Below are positions 10,591 through 17,517 of a DNA stretch of 64,000 bases, piece by piece. The first letter of the stretch is position 1, and every line of letters starts with the position of its first letter. Origin of the DNA: Methylocapsa palsarum (GTDB lineage Bacteria > Pseudomonadota > Alphaproteobacteria > Rhizobiales > Beijerinckiaceae); contig NZ_FOSN01000012.1 of the NCBI RefSeq assembly GCF_900114285.1, forward strand, positions 1 to 64,000, given 5' to 3'. The notes beneath the pieces are model-generated. The model ran no database searches. It worked only from the letters and a program-made list of their open reading frames with translations, and had not been told where the DNA came from. Both the position numbers and the translations under genes were made by a program.

Positions 10591-11007
10591 ATGGCGAAAA
10601 AATCATTGCTTCTTCGGAGCATCTCGATGAGCGGCTTTCTGGCGGGGGCGCTTGCTTTGCAGGCTGCGCCGGCGGCATTGGCGGCCTCCAACGTCGTGTC
10701 CAAATACGACAAAGACAGCGACAAGACCCTCGACTTGGCCGAAACGAAGGCTGCGGCCAGCGCTCAATTCGATAAATTGAATAAAGATCCTGACGACACC
10801 CTGGACGCTGGAGAAGTCAAGGGCGTGATCGGACGCAAGGAATTCAAGGCTGGCGATCCGGACCGTGACGGGACGCTGACCAAGGACGAGTATCTCACGA
10901 TTGTGGAGACGCTGTTCAAAAAAGCGGACGTCGACAACGACGGGACGCTCACCGCGAAGGAAATGAAATCGAAAGCGGGACGGGCCCTGAAGCGCCTGAT
11001 CGACTGA
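10591..11007 (+). CDS. Secreted four-EF-hand protein, lanmodulin family (divergent)
   Basis: A 138-residue precursor with a signal peptide (hydrophobic 15-30, Ala-rich cleavage region near 31-33). Four EF loops follow: residues 40-51 (DKDSDKTLDLAE), 64-75 (NKDPDDTLDAGE), 89-100 (DPDRDGTLTKDE) and 113-124 (DVDNDGTLTAKE). The gaps between loops are 12, 13 and 12 residues, the unusual short spacing of lanmodulin; ordinary EF pairs are about twice as far apart. The flanks FDKL, EY-x6-F and the GRALKRLID end also match lanmodulin. Lanmodulin's signature Pro at loop position 2 remains only in loop 3, and position-9 Asp only in loops 1 and 2. So the fold is clear, but rare-earth selectivity is uncertain. 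It lies about 1.4 kb upstream of mxaF, on the same strand. Confidence 0.8.
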   Translation: MAKKSLLLRSISMSGFLAGALALQAAPAALAASNVVSKYDKDSDKTLDLAETKAAASAQFDKLNKDPDDTLDAGEVKGVIGRKEFKAGDPDRDGTLTKDEYLTIVETLFKKADVDNDGTLTAKEMKSKAGRALKRLID

Positions 11008-11201
11008 GGGCGGCTATAACGAATCGGGGCGGGGGGAAAGGAACTGCAGGGCCAGCGACCGGCGAGAGTGCGACGCAATCGCCGAATGCCTGTTTGTCCT
11101 GAAAAATCTGAGAATGTTTGGAAATGACGCAAGCGGCGTCTTCCGTCATAGGAAACGTCGAAGATCCTTGGTTCCCTTGCTGTCGCCTCGATTTGTTCGA
11201 C

Positions 11202-12087
11202 ATGACCGGCGAATATTTGAGTTCCTGGCGCGGCGGTCAGACCCGCGTTCGCGCCGCGCTTTTCGCGCTCATGGTCTGCGCATCGGGCTCCGTCGGCGGC
11301 GATGACGTCGCTCGCGGCGAATATCTGATCGAAGCGCTCACGGCTTGCGACAATTGCCATACCCCCCGGGGTCCGGACGGCTACGATCTCTCTCGAAGAT
11401 TTTCAGGCGGCTCCCAGCTATTTTCCGACCGCGAGTACGCTGTCAGGGGTCGAACATCTCGCCGGAAAGGGTGAGTGGCGTCGGGGCTTGGTCGGACGCG
11501 GAGCTGCGTGCAGCCATTGTGGAGGGCAGGGATCCCAAAAGCCGCCTGGCTCCGGTTATGCCCTCAGACTCCTACCGCGCGCTCACCCCCTCAGATCTCG
11601 ATGCGATCATCGCAGTCCTGCGCAAGACGCCTCCCGTCGACTCCCGCCTCCCCGCTCAGGAAAGGCATGGCGCGCTCGAGCCGCGCAACTCGATTCCGGG
11701 CGCCGAACGGCCTTTTTCGGAAACCGAGCTTGCAAATCCCGAGCGGCGCGGGGTCTACATTGCTTCTCTCGCGCGGTGCATGGGATGCCACAGCGGGGAG
11801 GTCAGCGGCGCGCCCGATCCTCAACGTCGTCTTGGCGAAGGTGGAAAAGTCTTTCGCACGCCCGCCGGAGCCGCGGTCGCCTCAAACATCACTTCCCATC
11901 CGACGAAGGGGGTCGTTCCTGGACGGACGATGAGCTGAAACGCGCGATCACTCAGGGCGTCAGCCGCGATGGAAGGCGGCTAGCGCCGACCATGGCGAAT
12001 CTTTCGTTGTCTCATTTTTCCAAAATGACCGACGACGATCTTAACGCGCTGATTGTCTGGCTCCGAACCGTGCCGCCTCTAGAATAA
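11202..12087 (+). pseudogene. Diheme c-type cytochrome, broken by two frameshifts
   Basis: Three successive frames make one protein. The first (from ATG 11202) has a hydrophobic leader, DDVARGEYLIEALTACDNCHTPRGPDGYDL and the first heme site CDNCH. After a shift near 11440-11450 a second frame continues GSNISPERVSGVGAWSDAELRAAI and carries the second heme site CMGCH. After a shift near 11905 the third frame ends WTDDELKRAITQGVSRDGRRLAPTM. Each break fits loss of one base in a run of G (GGGG at about 11444, GGGGG at about 11909). The intact protein would resemble periplasmic diheme cytochromes that serve dehydrogenases. Sequencing error in the G-runs is an alternative to real decay. Confidence 0.75.
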
Positions 12088-12458: not shown

Positions 12459-14363
12459 ATGAGGAAGCTGCTGAATTCCGTGTCTGTGCTGAGCGTTATG
12501 CTCGCTGCGCAGATGTCGCTTTCGTCCTCGCGCGCGGAGGACAAGCTTGAAGCGCTCGCCAAAAGCGAAGACAACTGGGCGATGCAAGGCAAGAACTACA
12601 GCGCAAATCACTACAGCACGCTCACCCTGATCAATACCGATAATGTCAAGAAGCTGAGGCCCGCCTGGTCCTTCTCGACCGGTCTGCTCAGTGGGCATGA
12701 AGGCTCTCCGCTCGTGGTCGACGGCAAGATGTATATTCATACATCGTTCCCGAACAATACATTTGCGCTCAGTCTTGACGACCCCACCCGCATCCTGTGG
12801 CAGGATAAGCCGAAGCAGAACGCCGCCGCTCGCGCGGTCGCCTGCTGCGACATCGTCAATCGCGGCCTCGCCTATTGGCCCGGCGACGGCGTGACCCCCT
12901 CGCTTATCGTCAAAACCCTTCTCGACGGCAATGTGGTGGCGCTCAACGCGGACACCGGAGCCACCGTCTGGAAGATCGAAAATTCCGATTTCAAGGTCGG
13001 TTCGACTCTCACTGTCGCGCCGCATGTTTATAAGAATATCGTTCTCATCGGGAGTTCGGGGGCCGAGCTTGGCGTGCGCGGCTATATGACCGCCTATGAC
13101 GTTCGCACCGGCGAACAGAAATGGCGCGCCTATGCGACTGGTCCGGATTCCGACGTGCTCATCGGCGACGACTTCAACAAGGCCAATCCCCAATATGGGC
13201 AAAAAGGCCTCGGAACCGCCACGTGGGAAGGCGATGCATGGAAGATCGGCGGCGGCACGAACTGGGGCTGGTTCGCCTACGATCCAGGCACGAATCTCGT
13301 CTACTATGGCAGCGGCAACCCGGCGCCCTGGAACGAGACGATGCGTCCTGGCGACAACAAATGGACGATGACCATTTGGGGGCGTGATCTTGACACCGGT
13401 CAGGCGAAATTCGGCTATCAAAAAACTCCGCATGATGAGTGGGATTTCGCCGGCATCAATTTCATGATGCTGAGCGAGCAGAAGGACAAGGACGGCAAGG
13501 AACGCAAGCTACTCACCCATCCGGACCGCAACGGCATCGTCTATACCCTGGATCGGACCGACGGAACATTGATCTCCGCCGATAAGATCGACGACACTGT
13601 CAACGTGTTCAAGAAAGTCGATATCAAGACCGGGCTGCCGGTGCGCGATCCGGAATATGGCACGCGTATGGATCATCTGGGTAAGGATATTTGTCCCTCT
13701 GCAATGGGCTATCACAATCAGGGTCTTGATTCCTACGATCCTACAAAGGAGCTGTTCTTCCTTGGTGTGAACCATATCTGCATGGACTGGGAGCCTTTCA
13801 TGCTTCCCTATCGCGCGGGTCAGTTCTTCGTCGGCGCGACCTTGAATATGTTCCCCGGTCCGAAAGGCGATCGGCAGAAGGGCGAGGGCCTTGGGCAGAT
13901 CAAGGCCTATAACGCCATCACCGGGAAATTTAAGTGGGAGAAGATGGAGCGCTTCGCGGTTTGGGGCGGGACGGCCGCAACTGCCGGAAACATCGTCTTC
14001 TACGGTACGCTCGATGGATTCATCAAGGCGCGCCATAGCGAGACCGGTGAATTGCTCTGGAAATTCAAGCTGCCGTCTGGCGTGATCGGGCACCCGATCG
14101 TCTATCAGCACAAGGGCGTCGAATATCTGGCGATCATGTATGGCGTCGGCGGTTGGCCGGGCGTTGGCCTGGTGTTCGATCTGCAGGATCCGACCGCCGG
14201 TCTTGGAGCCGTCGGCGCCTTCAAGCAGCTCGCGAACTACACGCAGATGGGCGGCGGAGTCATGGTGTTCTCCCTTGACGGCAAGGGGCCTTACGACGAT
14301 GTAAACGTTGGTGAGTACACAGCGGGCGCGACGTCGATAATCTGGCAGTCGCCGAAGAATTGA
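12459..14363 (+). CDS. mxaF: MxaF, methanol dehydrogenase large subunit (Ca/PQQ type)
   Basis: The 634-residue precursor of the periplasmic quinoprotein that oxidises methanol to formaldehyde. The signal peptide ends near SRA/ED (residues 26/27). With that cleavage the vicinal cysteines of AVACCDIV become mature 103/104 and the catalytic Asp in DEWDFAG becomes mature 303, as in the family. GAELGVRG and [11 protein letters not shown] contribute the Glu and Asn metal ligands. The residue two after the catalytic Asp is Ala, not the extra Asp found in lanthanide-dependent XoxF, so this is the calcium form. ATG 12459 follows a GGAGGA ribosome site. It is the first gene of the mxa operon. Confidence 0.97.
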
Positions 14364-14397
14364 GCGCGAGTAACATAGCGCGATTGATAGAGCTAGC

Positions 14398-14426
14398 CGC
14401 GCCGCCGAGGTCTTCAAGGCGGCGCG
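14398..14426 (+). terminator. GC-rich hairpin between mxaF and mxaJ
   Basis: A nine-base perfect stem (CGCGCCGCC with GGCGGCGCG) around an 11-base loop, 35 bases after the mxaF stop and without a T-run. In such a position it probably stabilises the abundant mxaF message or attenuates read-through into mxaJ, rather than ending transcription. Confidence 0.55.
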
Positions 14427-14486
14427 AGGCAGGCGGCGGTTACTAATCGCGAACCGTCGCTTACGCCCAGAGATTGGATCACATAC

Positions 14487-15374
14487 ATGCTGCCTCAATC
14501 ACGTTCCAGGCGGAGAGCCGGCGCTCTTTTGTTGACTTTTATCTTTGGCGGATTCGATGGCTTTGCAGCGAACGCTGCGCCCGCCGACCGAGCCAACGCC
14601 GATGCGCGTGAGCAGGCTGGCGTCTTGCGCATATGCGCTGCGAAGAACCAGCCGCCGCTATCGTTGGAGGATGGCTCGGGTTTTGAAAACAAGATCGCTG
14701 TCGTTCTCGCCGAGGCCATGAACAGGAAGGCGCAATTCGTTTGGTATGAACGGCCTGCAATCTATCTTGTCCGCGACCAGCTCGATAAGAACGCATGCGA
14801 TGTGATCGTCGGGCTTGATTCCGGAGATCCTCGTGTTGCGACCTCGAAGCCTTACTATCGCACTGGTTACGTCTTCGTGACCCGGGCGGATCGAGATCTA
14901 AACATTAAGTCGTGGTCGGATCAAAGACTAGCAAAGCTGGGCCATATCGCTGTGTCTTTCGGATCTCCGGGAGAGGTTCTGTTGAAAGATATTGGCCAAT
15001 ACGAAAACAACATGGCCTATCTATATTCTCTCGTGAACTTCAAGTCGGCGCGTAATGAATATACTCAGGTAGATCCCGCCAAAATGGTCGGAGAAGTCTC
15101 AAGCGGCGGCGCTGAACTCGCCGTGGCTTTCGCGCCCGACGTCGCACGTTATGTCAAGGCTTCCGTGACGCCCCTTCGCATCAGTTTGATCGACGACGAC
15201 GCCGTAAAGAGAAATGGAGAGAAAGTGCCGCAGCGATTTGATCAGTCGGTCGGTGTTCGCCATGACGACACGGCATTGCTCGAACAGATAGACGCGGCGC
15301 TCGTGCTGGCGAAACCCAAGATCGACGCGATTTTGCAGGTTGAGGGCGTCCCGCTCGTTCCCATTAGCCGATGA
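14487..15374 (+). CDS. mxaJ: MxaJ, periplasmic solute-binding-like protein of methanol oxidation
   Basis: A 295-residue exported protein with a signal peptide (residues about 10-32) and a type-II periplasmic binding protein fold. Visible blocks are LRICAAKNQPPLSLEDGSGFENKIAVVLAEAMNR and SGDPRVATSKPYYRTGYVFVTR. MxaJ is needed for active methanol dehydrogenase and probably acts as an assembly chaperone. It follows mxaF by 123 bases, with the hairpin between. Confidence 0.92.
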   Translation: MLPQSRSRRRAGALLLTFIFGGFDGFAANAAPADRANADAREQAGVLRICAAKNQPPLSLEDGSGFENKIAVVLAEAMNRKAQFVWYERPAIYLVRDQLDKNACDVIVGLDSGDPRVATSKPYYRTGYVFVTRADRDLNIKSWSDQRLAKLGHIAVSFGSPGEVLLKDIGQYENNMAYLYSLVNFKSARNEYTQVDPAKMVGEVSSGGAELAVAFAPDVARYVKASVTPLRISLIDDDAVKRNGEKVPQRFDQSVGVRHDDTALLEQIDAALVLAKPKIDAILQVEGVPLVPISR

Positions 15375-15413
15375 TGAAGCGCCACGCGAATTCGCACCAG
15401 GAAAGAATCACTC

Positions 15414-16004
15414 GTGTTTAACGGCTATAAAATCTACAAGACAGCATCGCTCATTCTAGGCGGCGCCCTCACTAGCGTGCTGGCGCTCGCCGCCATTGCT
15501 CAGACGTCATCGATCACCTTTCGAAATACCATCACCGGAGAGGTCCTTGACCTTAATGATGCGCTACCGGAAGGGCGGAATACGGAGGGCGTGCAGAAGT
15601 TCATGCAAACCGGGGTAAATCCCTACAACGAAGACAAGAGCTGTCTGAAGCAGGGCGAACAAATATTCCTCTCGGCCTGCTCCGGTTGTCATGGCCATCT
15701 TGGCGAGGGCAAGATAGGGCCTGGCCTCAACGACGATTATTGGACCTATCCGGAAAATACGACAGACGTCGGGATCTTTTCGACGATATTCGGCGGCGCG
15801 AAAGCCTCGATGGGGCCACAATATCAAAATCTACAGCTTGATGAAATCCTCAAAGTCATGGCTTGGGTGCGTCATCTCTACAAGGATGGCGTCGATCAGG
15901 CGCCATGGTTCACTGAGGAGCAGAAAAAAAACTACAAGCCCTATAAACAGGGCGAGGTTTTTGCTGACGATGCGCCAGGCGCATGCAAAACGCAGGCGAA
16001 GTGA
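15414..16004 (+). CDS. mxaG: MxaG, cytochrome cL
   Basis: A 196-residue precursor starting at GTG 15414, with AGGAAAG about 12 bases upstream. It has an N-terminal export signal. The single heme site is CSGCH (Cys89, Cys92, His93) and Met of ASMGPQ is a likely sixth ligand. The acidic, lysine-poor surface and the GKIGPGLNDDYWTYPEN block are typical of cytochrome cL, the direct electron acceptor of methanol dehydrogenase in the periplasm. It lies 39 bases after mxaJ. Confidence 0.95.
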   Translation: MFNGYKIYKTASLILGGALTSVLALAAIAQTSSITFRNTITGEVLDLNDALPEGRNTEGVQKFMQTGVNPYNEDKSCLKQGEQIFLSACSGCHGHLGEGKIGPGLNDDYWTYPENTTDVGIFSTIFGGAKASMGPQYQNLQLDEILKVMAWVRHLYKDGVDQAPWFTEEQKKNYKPYKQGEVFADDAPGACKTQAK

Positions 16005-16062
16005 ATAATGCGGCGGCGTCGCGACGGCGCGCAAACGCCACGAACAAGCGGAGGAAAGCACA

Positions 16063-16365
16063 ATGCGCATGACTAATCTCGCTCCGGCGTTGCTCGCCGG
16101 TGGACTTCTGGTCGCTATGCCAGTCAGCGTCGTTTTGGCCTACGATGGCACGACCTGCAAAGCGCCAGGGAATTGTTGGGAGCCCAAGCCAGGTTTTCCG
16201 GAAAAAGTCGAGGGCTCGAAATACGATCCCAAGCATGATGCGAAGGAAATAGCAAAGCAGCAGACCTCGATTCAGGGTATGGAAGAGCGTAACAAAAAGC
16301 GCGTCGCCTATTTCAAGAAATCCGGAAAATGGGTTTACGAAGTGGATAAAATCCCAACCGAATGA
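16063..16365 (+). CDS. mxaI: MxaI, methanol dehydrogenase small subunit
   Basis: A 100-residue precursor with a signal peptide cut near VVLA/YDG. The mature protein begins YDGTTCKAPGNCWEPKPGFPEKVEGSKYDPKHD, split by the conserved disulfide Cys pair, and continues as a long lysine-rich helix (KRVAYFKKSGKWVYEVDKI). It wraps around MxaF in the alpha2-beta2 enzyme. Its presence further supports the calcium-type assignment, since XoxF enzymes generally lack it. Confidence 0.95.
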   Translation: MRMTNLAPALLAGGLLVAMPVSVVLAYDGTTCKAPGNCWEPKPGFPEKVEGSKYDPKHDAKEIAKQQTSIQGMEERNKKRVAYFKKSGKWVYEVDKIPTE

Positions 16366-16432
16366 GGGTGTCTTACGGACGACGAATCTGATGGCGAGTC
16401 TCGCAATTATAGTTGCTCCTTTTGATGGAGCC

Positions 16433-16449
16433 AAGTCGTCACGACTTTT
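16433..16449 (+). terminator. Weak hairpin between mxaI and mxaR
   Basis: A six-base stem AAGTCG/CGACTT with a three-base loop, followed by two T. It lies in the 120-base gap that divides structural genes from accessory genes, so it may lower expression of mxaR onward. It is short, and confidence is low. Confidence 0.35.
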
Positions 16450-16485
16450 AGCGTCGCTGTTTGGACTTCGATTGATGGGTGAGCT

Positions 16486-17517
16486 TTGAACAAGCTGGCG
16501 TCGGTCGCCGCAAGCCTCGATGAATGGCGCGCGCGTGCGCTCTCATTCGAAAGAGAGATTGCGAAAGCTATGGTTGGTCAGCAGCGCGCCATTCGTTTGG
16601 TGACGATCGCCATTTTTTCGCGTGGTCATGTTCTGATCGAAGGTGACGTCGGCGTCGGCAAGACGACGTTGCTGCGTGCAGCCTCGCGCGCGCTCGGAGG
16701 CGATTTCGCGCGGGTAGAGGGAACGGTCGACATGATGCCGACTGATATTCTCTATCATACCGATCTCGGAGATGACGGACGCCCCCGTGTCGGGCCGTCG
16801 CCTCTGCTGAGGAAGGCGGAATCGATTTCCGTATTTTTCTTCAACGAAATCAACCGTGCGCGGCCGCAGGTTCATTCGCTGTTATTACGATTGATGGCGG
16901 AGCGTAACGTTTCCGCATTTGACCGGGACTATGCTTTCCCTTTCCTCCAGGTCTTTGCTGATCGCAACATGGTCGAGCGTGAGGAAACCTTTGAATTGCC
17001 GGCGGCGGTGCGCGACCGCTTCCTGATGGAGATCGCCATCACCGCGCCCAAGGAGGATGACATTCGTCGTGAATTGGCGTTCGATCCGAAATTCGGCGAT
17101 GTTGATGCGCTTGTTTCTCGCGTCGAGACGGGCGTTTTCGATTACCACGCAATCCCCGCGGTCGCCGATCTGATTCAAGCTGAAGTCAGTGCGAGCTCCG
17201 CCCTGCAAAGTTACGTCCTCGCCTTGTGGAACGGAATATTAAGACCTGGGTCCGTTGGCGCCAGTCTTGACGACGCGGACGCTGACACGCTTGTCAAGGG
17301 TGGCGCTAGCCCGAGAGGATTGGCCTTTCTCGTCCGAGCGGCCCGCGTGCGCGCCTGGCTCGAGGGTCGCGACTATCTTGTTCCCGATGATATACGCGAG
17401 ATTTTCATTGAAGTTTTAGCGCACCGGATTGTAGTCGATCCGATCCACGCGCTTCGCGGCGACGGTATCGTCAAGCACTTGTGCCGCACGGTGTTCGACG
17501 CAGTCCCCGCGCCATGA
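16486..17517 (+). CDS. mxaR: MxaR, MoxR-type AAA ATPase
   Basis: A 343-residue cytoplasmic ATPase. Walker A is GDVGVGKTT (residues 53-61), and the Walker B region reads SVFFFNEINRA. MoxR ATPases work with von Willebrand-A proteins as chaperones; here the partners MxaS, MxaC and MxaL follow in the same operon, and the set is needed for calcium insertion. The start is TTG 16486. No in-frame ATG exists until after the conserved N-terminal helix, and GGGTGAG lies just upstream. Confidence 0.93.
   Translation: MNKLASVAASLDEWRARALSFEREIAKAMVGQQRAIRLVTIAIFSRGHVLIEGDVGVGKTTLLRAASRALGGDFARVEGTVDMMPTDILYHTDLGDDGRPRVGPSPLLRKAESISVFFFNEINRARPQVHSLLLRLMAERNVSAFDRDYAFPFLQVFADRNMVEREETFELPAAVRDRFLMEIAITAPKEDDIRRELAFDPKFGDVDALVSRVETGVFDYHAIPAVADLIQAEVSASSALQSYVLALWNGILRPGSVGASLDDADADTLVKGGASPRGLAFLVRAARVRAWLEGRDYLVPDDIREIFIEVLAHRIVVDPIHALRGDGIVKHLCRTVFDAVPAP

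Follow-up and report, generated by a model that had tools for sequence, protein, structure and literature searches.

Lanmodulins (LanMs) have been described as proteins with four EF hands, a 12-13 residue spacing and a proline at position 2 (Pro2) of at least one loop (PMC10232371). In Mex-LanM, from Methylorubrum extorquens AM1, changing Pro2 to Ala lowers the selectivity for lanthanides (Ln) over Ca, and Hans-LanM, from Hansschlegelia quercus, carries Pro2 in one of its four loops (PMC12603986). The LanM of Methylobacterium aquaticum 22A, with Pro2 in two of four loops and Thr/Lys at position 2 of EF1/EF2, is periplasmic and binds La3+. It is under MxcQE control and holds mxcQE expression constant, when it is deleted La is deposited in the periplasm and mxcQE expression comes to depend on La, and it is not needed for growth (PMC9260416). 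For methanotrophs, a 2025 survey found the Mex motif in two Methylocella sequences and treats LanM candidates that lack it as proteins that could be variants of LanM or of calmodulin (PMC12482762). In M. silvestris, Msil_0271 is a LanM that La induces 39-fold (PMC9291206).

The lanM gene and its product

The window, i.e., the whole 64,000-nucleotide stretch of Methylocapsa palsarum DNA that was analysed, contains a lanM gene upstream of mxa genes (Table 1). The N-terminus of its product resembles, as judged by eye, a Sec signal peptide with an A-x-A site at its end, and from its sequence the protein is apparently secreted. Translation and loop mapping bear out the initial annotation, which had described four EF loops with 12, 13 and 12 residues between successive loops in a secreted protein; the translation has 138 residues, and the positions that the annotation had singled out (a Pro2 confined to loop 3, the Thr9 of loops 3 and 4, the Asn1 of loop 2) are all correct. 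A promoter and terminator scan returned no promoter-like and four terminator-like sites, which is no excess over the expectation from shuffled sequence.

Table 1. Features of the lanM-mxa region of the window and of a small protein near lanM in other loci
Feature	Position	Strand	Details
lanM	10591..11007	+	138-aa precursor; translation ends in TGA; NCBIfam, phmmer
Likely Sec signal peptide, residues 1-31	10591..10683	+	AALA/AS; read by eye
EF loop 1, residues 40-51	10708..10743	+	DKDSDKTLDLAE; D1 D3 D5 D9 E12; Lys at 2 and 6
EF loop 2, residues 64-75	10780..10815	+	NKDPDDTLDAGE; N1 D3 D5 D9 E12; Lys2, Pro4
EF loop 3, residues 89-100	10855..10890	+	DPDRDGTLTKDE; sole Pro2 of the four loops; Thr9
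EF loop 4, residues 113-124	10927..10962	+	DVDNDGTLTAKE; Val2, Thr9
Decayed gene for a diheme cytochrome c, in the lanM-mxaF interval	11140..12087	+	matches in three frames
mxaF, Ca-type methanol dehydrogenase (MDH) large subunit	12459..14363	+	HDEWDFAG; likely ATG start at 12459
mxaJ	14487..15374	+	TIGR03870 equivalog (MoxJ), 382.7 bits
mxaG, cytochrome cL	15414..16004	+	TIGR03872 equivalog, 215.5 bits
mxaI-like small subunit	16063..16365	+	45-76% in six mxa clusters compared
mxaR-type MoxR AAA ATPase	16486..17517	+	Pfam AAA_3 / AAA_lid_2 / bpMoxR
Small, apparently secreted protein near lanM	L180 14080-14439; L179 6214-6546; L052 14327-14668

Membership of the lanmodulin family

The NCBIfam LanM equivalog NF053806 gives the query protein 141.6 bits, and 141 in the genome search; its cut-off is 135, so the margin is only 6 bits. 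The same model, used in the genome search on 14 control genomes, exceeded its cut-off in none of them and gave one weaker match, in Caulobacter. When the protein was compared to the PDB with phmmer, six sequences were retrieved in all: over the core, Mex-LanM (8fns, 4e-26; 6mi5, 6e-26), Hans-LanM (8dq2, 1e-19) and the Ancylobacter lacus LanM (9pi2, 5e-19), followed by two calcium-binding proteins (2e-4, 5e-4). An AlphaFold2 model based on three aligned rows (mean pLDDT 71.4, pTM 0.63, with pLDDT below 50 across residues 1-33) has the three-helix-bundle lanmodulin fold. In the PDB it matches 8fns, 8fnr, 8dq2 and 6mi5, all of them lanmodulins, and nothing else at E<0.001; the fifth match, a calmodulin-like one, has E=0.15.

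The four EF hands, the 12/13/12 spacing and the Pro2 of loop 3 are what the published description of the family (PMC10232371) calls for, and the protein is also of the right size and architecture, being under 200 residues with four EF loops and, from the signal peptide read by eye, secreted. It does not carry the full Mex-type motif set, since Pro2 occurs in one of four loops and Asp9 in two of four, nor the Hans-type combination of Asn1 and Glu9 in EF1-3, since Asn1 is confined to loop 2 and Glu9 is absent. Likewise, it shows neither the spacing of about 25 residues nor the calmodulin-like fold of ordinary calcium EF hands. We conclude that the query protein is a genuine lanmodulin. Profile, tree and predicted fold thus uphold a family link that had been proposed from spacing and flanking residues, and the profile search, which according to the initial annotation might have put the protein in another EF-hand family, places it in LanM.

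Comparison with known lanmodulins

The closest of the proteins compared, the Methylocella tundrae protein L006 (L005 of genome G014 is nearly the same), is 77-78% identical to the query, is likewise above the LanM cut-off and has Pro2 in loop 3 only. In contrast to the query, its gene is upstream of a transaldolase gene, its loop 4 has Asp9 and Glu5, and its loop 2 has Ser4 rather than Pro4. Mex-LanM shares with the query the four EF loops at 12/13/12, the fold (TMt 0.77 to 8fns) and the flanking blocks FDKL and EYL...F, but each of its loops carries both Pro2 and Asp9. Hans-LanM, 38-40% identical in the fold alignment, is similar to the query in having a single Pro2, Lys2 in other loops, an Asn1, a non-Gly residue at position 6 of some loops and Thr9 in EF4; it differs in having Glu9 and Asn1 in EF1-3 and in placing its Pro2 in EF2. 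The 22A LanM is also without Pro2 in EF1 and EF2 (PMC9260416), whereas it keeps Pro2 in two loops and lies in another genomic context.

To place these loops in the wider family, we tabulated 114 LanM-like rows (the family and some neighbours), which represent 111 places because three places are entered twice under different ids. Loop 3 is the only loop with Pro2 in 34 of the 114 rows, and it carries Ser/Thr9 in 66, all of these 34 among them. Asn1 in loop 2 occurs in 12 rows and Ser/Thr9 in loop 4, the rarest feature of the query, in six; none of these four counts contains a doubled place. The Mex-LanM arrangement, with a Pro2 in every loop, accounts for 20 of 114 rows, with two places doubled. 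At frequencies of 34 and 66 in 114 the loop pattern of the query is common in the family, and characterised LanMs too are without Pro2 in several loops, so that the word "divergent" in the initial annotation overstated the case.

Distribution of LanM-B in the genus

We searched 60 genomes, the query genome included, for relatives of the protein and found matches in 22. The genus of the query was taken as that of Methylocella tundrae, with 15 genus genomes compared, and the query's type, for which gene order and the pattern of the loops are the defining features, is here labelled LanM-B. LanM-B is present in 13 of the 15; the genome search gave no LanM match in G012, which is 77% complete, or in G013. 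Across the 13 LanM-B rows, positions 1, 3, 5 and 12 are always Asp, Asn or Glu, Asp9 is invariant in loops 1 and 2 (13/13), and position 9 of loop 3 is Thr or Ser in 13/13.

LanM-B is the sole LanM detected in nine of its 13 genomes, and the other four (G007, G008, G009 and G014) carry a second type, LanM-A (L026-L029), which belongs to the LanM family and the same genus. LanM-A differs from the query in having Pro2 in all four loops and a 12/11/12 spacing, and the two are 43-46% identical. By position, the La-induced Msil_0271 of M. silvestris can be taken as L029, the LanM-A copy of G009, and the five MDH genes of G009 fall about where the locus tags of PMC9291206 predict. No LanM-B copy appears among the proteins that the paper tabulates as changing four-fold or more, so LanM-B may be constitutive rather than lanthanide-regulated, or may have gone undetected. 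The LanM-B type was probably already seen in the 2025 survey, where its class was not settled (PMC12482762); this motif-less methanotroph type is now placed in LanM and set apart from the La-induced paralogue. In G013, mxaF and XoxF are present and no lanmodulin was detected, which suggests that LanM is dispensable.

In all 12 of the other genus genomes that carry LanM-B, its gene precedes a transaldolase gene of the same orientation, at a distance of 815 bp in G014 and of 34 to 2069 bp in the remaining 11. The query genome has the syntenic transaldolase locus, with no lanM detectable there. A lanM is likewise found upstream of transaldolase, at a gap of 2103 bp, in G023, which belongs to another genus. 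We considered a functional link between lanmodulin and transaldolase and did not adopt it: the gene pair is conserved, but the lanM product looks secreted and transaldolase is presumably cytoplasmic. The C-terminal end of the query protein gives 26 bits, against a cut-off of 550, with the NCBIfam transaldolase model PRK12309 (392 positions), which we take to be a transaldolase/EF-hand fusion. No paper on lanmodulin with transaldolase was found in a literature search.

The mxa cluster and the history of lanM

The initial annotation had lanM beside an mxa operon. The mxa genes are indeed downstream, but mxaF is not the immediate neighbour, as 1.45 kb containing the broken diheme cytochrome gene separates it from lanM. 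This remnant matches G125 and G243 at 53-74% by tblastx, and in those genomes an open homologue of the cytochrome gene occupies the same place by mxaF, with lanM beyond it in the opposite direction. The query MxaF was called Ca-type from its motif HDEWDFAG, as opposed to HD(E/Q)WDYD in XoxF proteins. The small-subunit ORF had no NCBIfam match, and it is presumably mxaI; the mxaR-type ATPase is 61-71% identical in six mxa clusters compared.

The query MxaF is 89-93% identical to those of 20 g18 genomes and three g66 genomes, 84-85% to those of five other g66 genomes and 87% to that of one g58 genome, as compared with 72-83% for nine genomes of its own genus. In the MxaF tree it falls in a 16-row clade (100/100) from which other members of the genus are absent. 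A single clade of the ten genus MxaFs is rejected (p-AU 4.6e-5), a result that is not specific to the query, since other MxaFs of the genus, for instance that of G001, are scattered as well. MxaJ, MxaG and MxaR are also closer to G125 and G243 than to G014. On the identities, the tree and these further matches, the mxa cluster (12459-17517 and beyond) was probably acquired horizontally, from a donor related to g18/g66.

The lanM gene itself groups differently. LanM trees place the query with the copies of G014, G002, G009 and G007 (a starred five-row set) and inside a starred six-row set made up of genus members only; the tree of this short protein, with few columns, does not resolve the 13 LanM-B rows as one clade. 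Six marker genes of the transaldolase locus, in a set that leaves out G001, G005 and G006, reject a grouping of the query with these four genomes, which are of tundrae/silvestris type (p-AU 0.0013). LanM rejects a five-row group of these four plus G008 that excludes the query (p-AU 0.0225) and does not reject the four-row group excluding it (p-AU 0.216). Transfer of lanM within the genus is favoured with moderate support, though not proven. The arrival of lanM jointly with the imported mxa genes was rejected: the lanM of G125 and G243, at the same place, is only 45-48% identical and in the opposite orientation, and a simple joint transfer is also contradicted by the grouping of the query lanM with genus members. 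The position of lanM beside mxa appears to be new to this lineage.

Proposed role

We favour, with a probability of roughly 0.7, the reading that the query protein is a true lanmodulin acting as a periplasmic lanthanide buffer that helps set the MxaF/XoxF switch, its placement by mxa being recent. The results above establish the family, the predicted fold, the genomic context and the gene relationships; that the protein is a buffer, and how metals and sites rank, we infer from characterised relatives, and periplasmic buffering in particular from the behaviour of the 22A LanM. LanM-B would be a secreted, periplasmic four-EF-hand protein that folds when it binds lanthanide ions and buffers periplasmic lanthanide, limiting deposition and mis-metallation. 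Such buffering would support lanthanide uptake for XoxF and, via the lanthanide level, help to set the MxaF/XoxF switch. The predicted tight lanthanide sites are loops 1 and 2, which have the lanmodulin-type carboxylate at the ninth position. Loops 3 and 4, in which Thr9 resembles ordinary EF hands and leaves no ninth carboxylate, may bind more weakly or less selectively; position 9, a feature of the sequence, was not accepted as proof of weak binding. Given the effect of Pro2 to Ala in Mex-LanM, discrimination against calcium may be weaker in the query protein. The combinations of Pro2 and position 9 found in LanM-B are natural ones for studying rare-earth versus calcium selectivity. The location of lanM beside mxa would be a recent event in this lineage, with the mxa cluster probably itself imported.

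Linkage of lanM to mxa genes

To see how often lanM lies near mxa genes, we took 65 genomes with a MoxJ match over the cut-off, 64 of which had a LanM-like match (82 copies). A lanM is no more than 13.4 kb from mxaJ in seven of the 64 (G000, G125, G243, G014, G008, G305 and G197), and the next-nearest lanM on a contig shared with mxaJ lies at 129 kb. If copies were placed at random in a 4.5-Mb genome, about 0.55 would be expected within 15 kb, so the linkage recurs. The binomial P is 1.4e-6 for seven genomes and 2.3e-4 for five, with G305 (a broken lanM copy) and G197 (a copy under the LanM cut-off) excluded; both values apply to a 15-kb limit chosen after the distances had been seen, to genomes that are related, and with contig ends ignored. 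We recognised no published report of lanM-mxa co-location in a literature search. Two observations make it plausible that, as the initial annotation suggested, the protein buffers lanthanide for the Ca/Ln switch: the reported link of the 22A LanM to MxcQE and the location of lanM near mxa above random, and the recurrent linkage makes the LanM-MxcQE link testable in methanotrophs.

The same linkage raises the possibility, which we hold only tentatively, of a dedicated sensor of the Ca/Ln switch, whose gene has been drawn repeatedly to mxa and which reports lanthanide to the mxa regulators. The seven genomes show several arrangements and at least three LanM types, but G125 and G243 share one arrangement, two of the seven copies are the broken and the sub-cut-off one, and the distance limit is post hoc. 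By comparison, the nearest lanM to xoxJ-like genes is 36 kb away among the 85 matches listed, and the 22A lanM is both regulated by MxcQE and of consequence for mxcQE expression (PMC9260416), which agrees with a sensor; against it, the other 57 genomes show no linkage, many having the two genes on different contigs, and elsewhere in the genus LanM-B is not at mxa.

LanM-A is also near mxa in G014 and G008. In G014 (L052/L184) it lies about 3 kb from mxaF amid ORFs that look by eye like transposases, and in G002, a close relative of G014, neither mxaF nor LanM-A was seen. A small, apparently secreted protein of about 113-120 aa with a RFWNLTSETVTSLRLAP block, which has no match in the window, is encoded near lanM in G125, G243 and G014 (Table 1).

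Co-occurrence with XoxF and mxaF

A scan of the query genome for xoxF and further lanM copies, as the initial annotation had advised, found xoxF and detected one lanM. The single XoxF has the Ln aspartate (HDQWDYDG) and adjoins a methanol-related cytochrome and a MoxJ-like gene; mxaF and xoxF are the only high-scoring MDH genes, the third match being weak (31% identity). Across the 13 LanM-B genomes, an XoxF-type MDH is present in all 13 and mxaF in nine; mxaF was not found in G002, G003, G005 and G006, all draft assemblies in 160-580 contigs, with a completeness of 88% and 93% for two of them. This difference speaks against a protein of the calcium MDH.

A calcium or mixed-metal lanmodulin serving the calcium methanol dehydrogenase, the version that the initial annotation had tied to mxa, is accordingly an unlikely reading and was dropped as the main one. 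The 1.45 kb between lanM and mxaF in the query would agree with it, but in the 12 other genus genomes having LanM-B the gene precedes transaldolase, also where mxaF was not detected (four of 13, all drafts). The query resembles ordinary EF hands in the Thr9 of loops 3 and 4 and in the Lys2 of loops 1 and 2, and loss of Pro2 lowers the Ln/Ca selectivity of Mex-LanM (PMC12603986); yet Hans-LanM, with Lys2 in EF1/EF3 and a single Pro2, has a Kd,app for La of 68 pM, and Pro2 in loop 3 only is shared by 34 of the 114 family rows.

We regard it as quite improbable that LanM-B is two-tiered, with loops 1 and 2 of lanmodulin type and loops 3 and 4 of calmodulin type that together would read the Ln/Ca ratio, and that mxa captured lanM because this readout sets the MxaF/XoxF switch. 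Least credible, to the point of being nearly discounted, is a general calmodulin-like EF-hand protein with lanmodulin spacing by chance: the EF-hand protein L024 has the 12/13/12 spacing with no Pro2 in any loop, so spacing is insufficient as sole proof of LanM, but the LanM equivalog match, the fold search and the tree are all contrary, as is the 78% identity to the Methylocella tundrae protein, which is also over the LanM cut-off.
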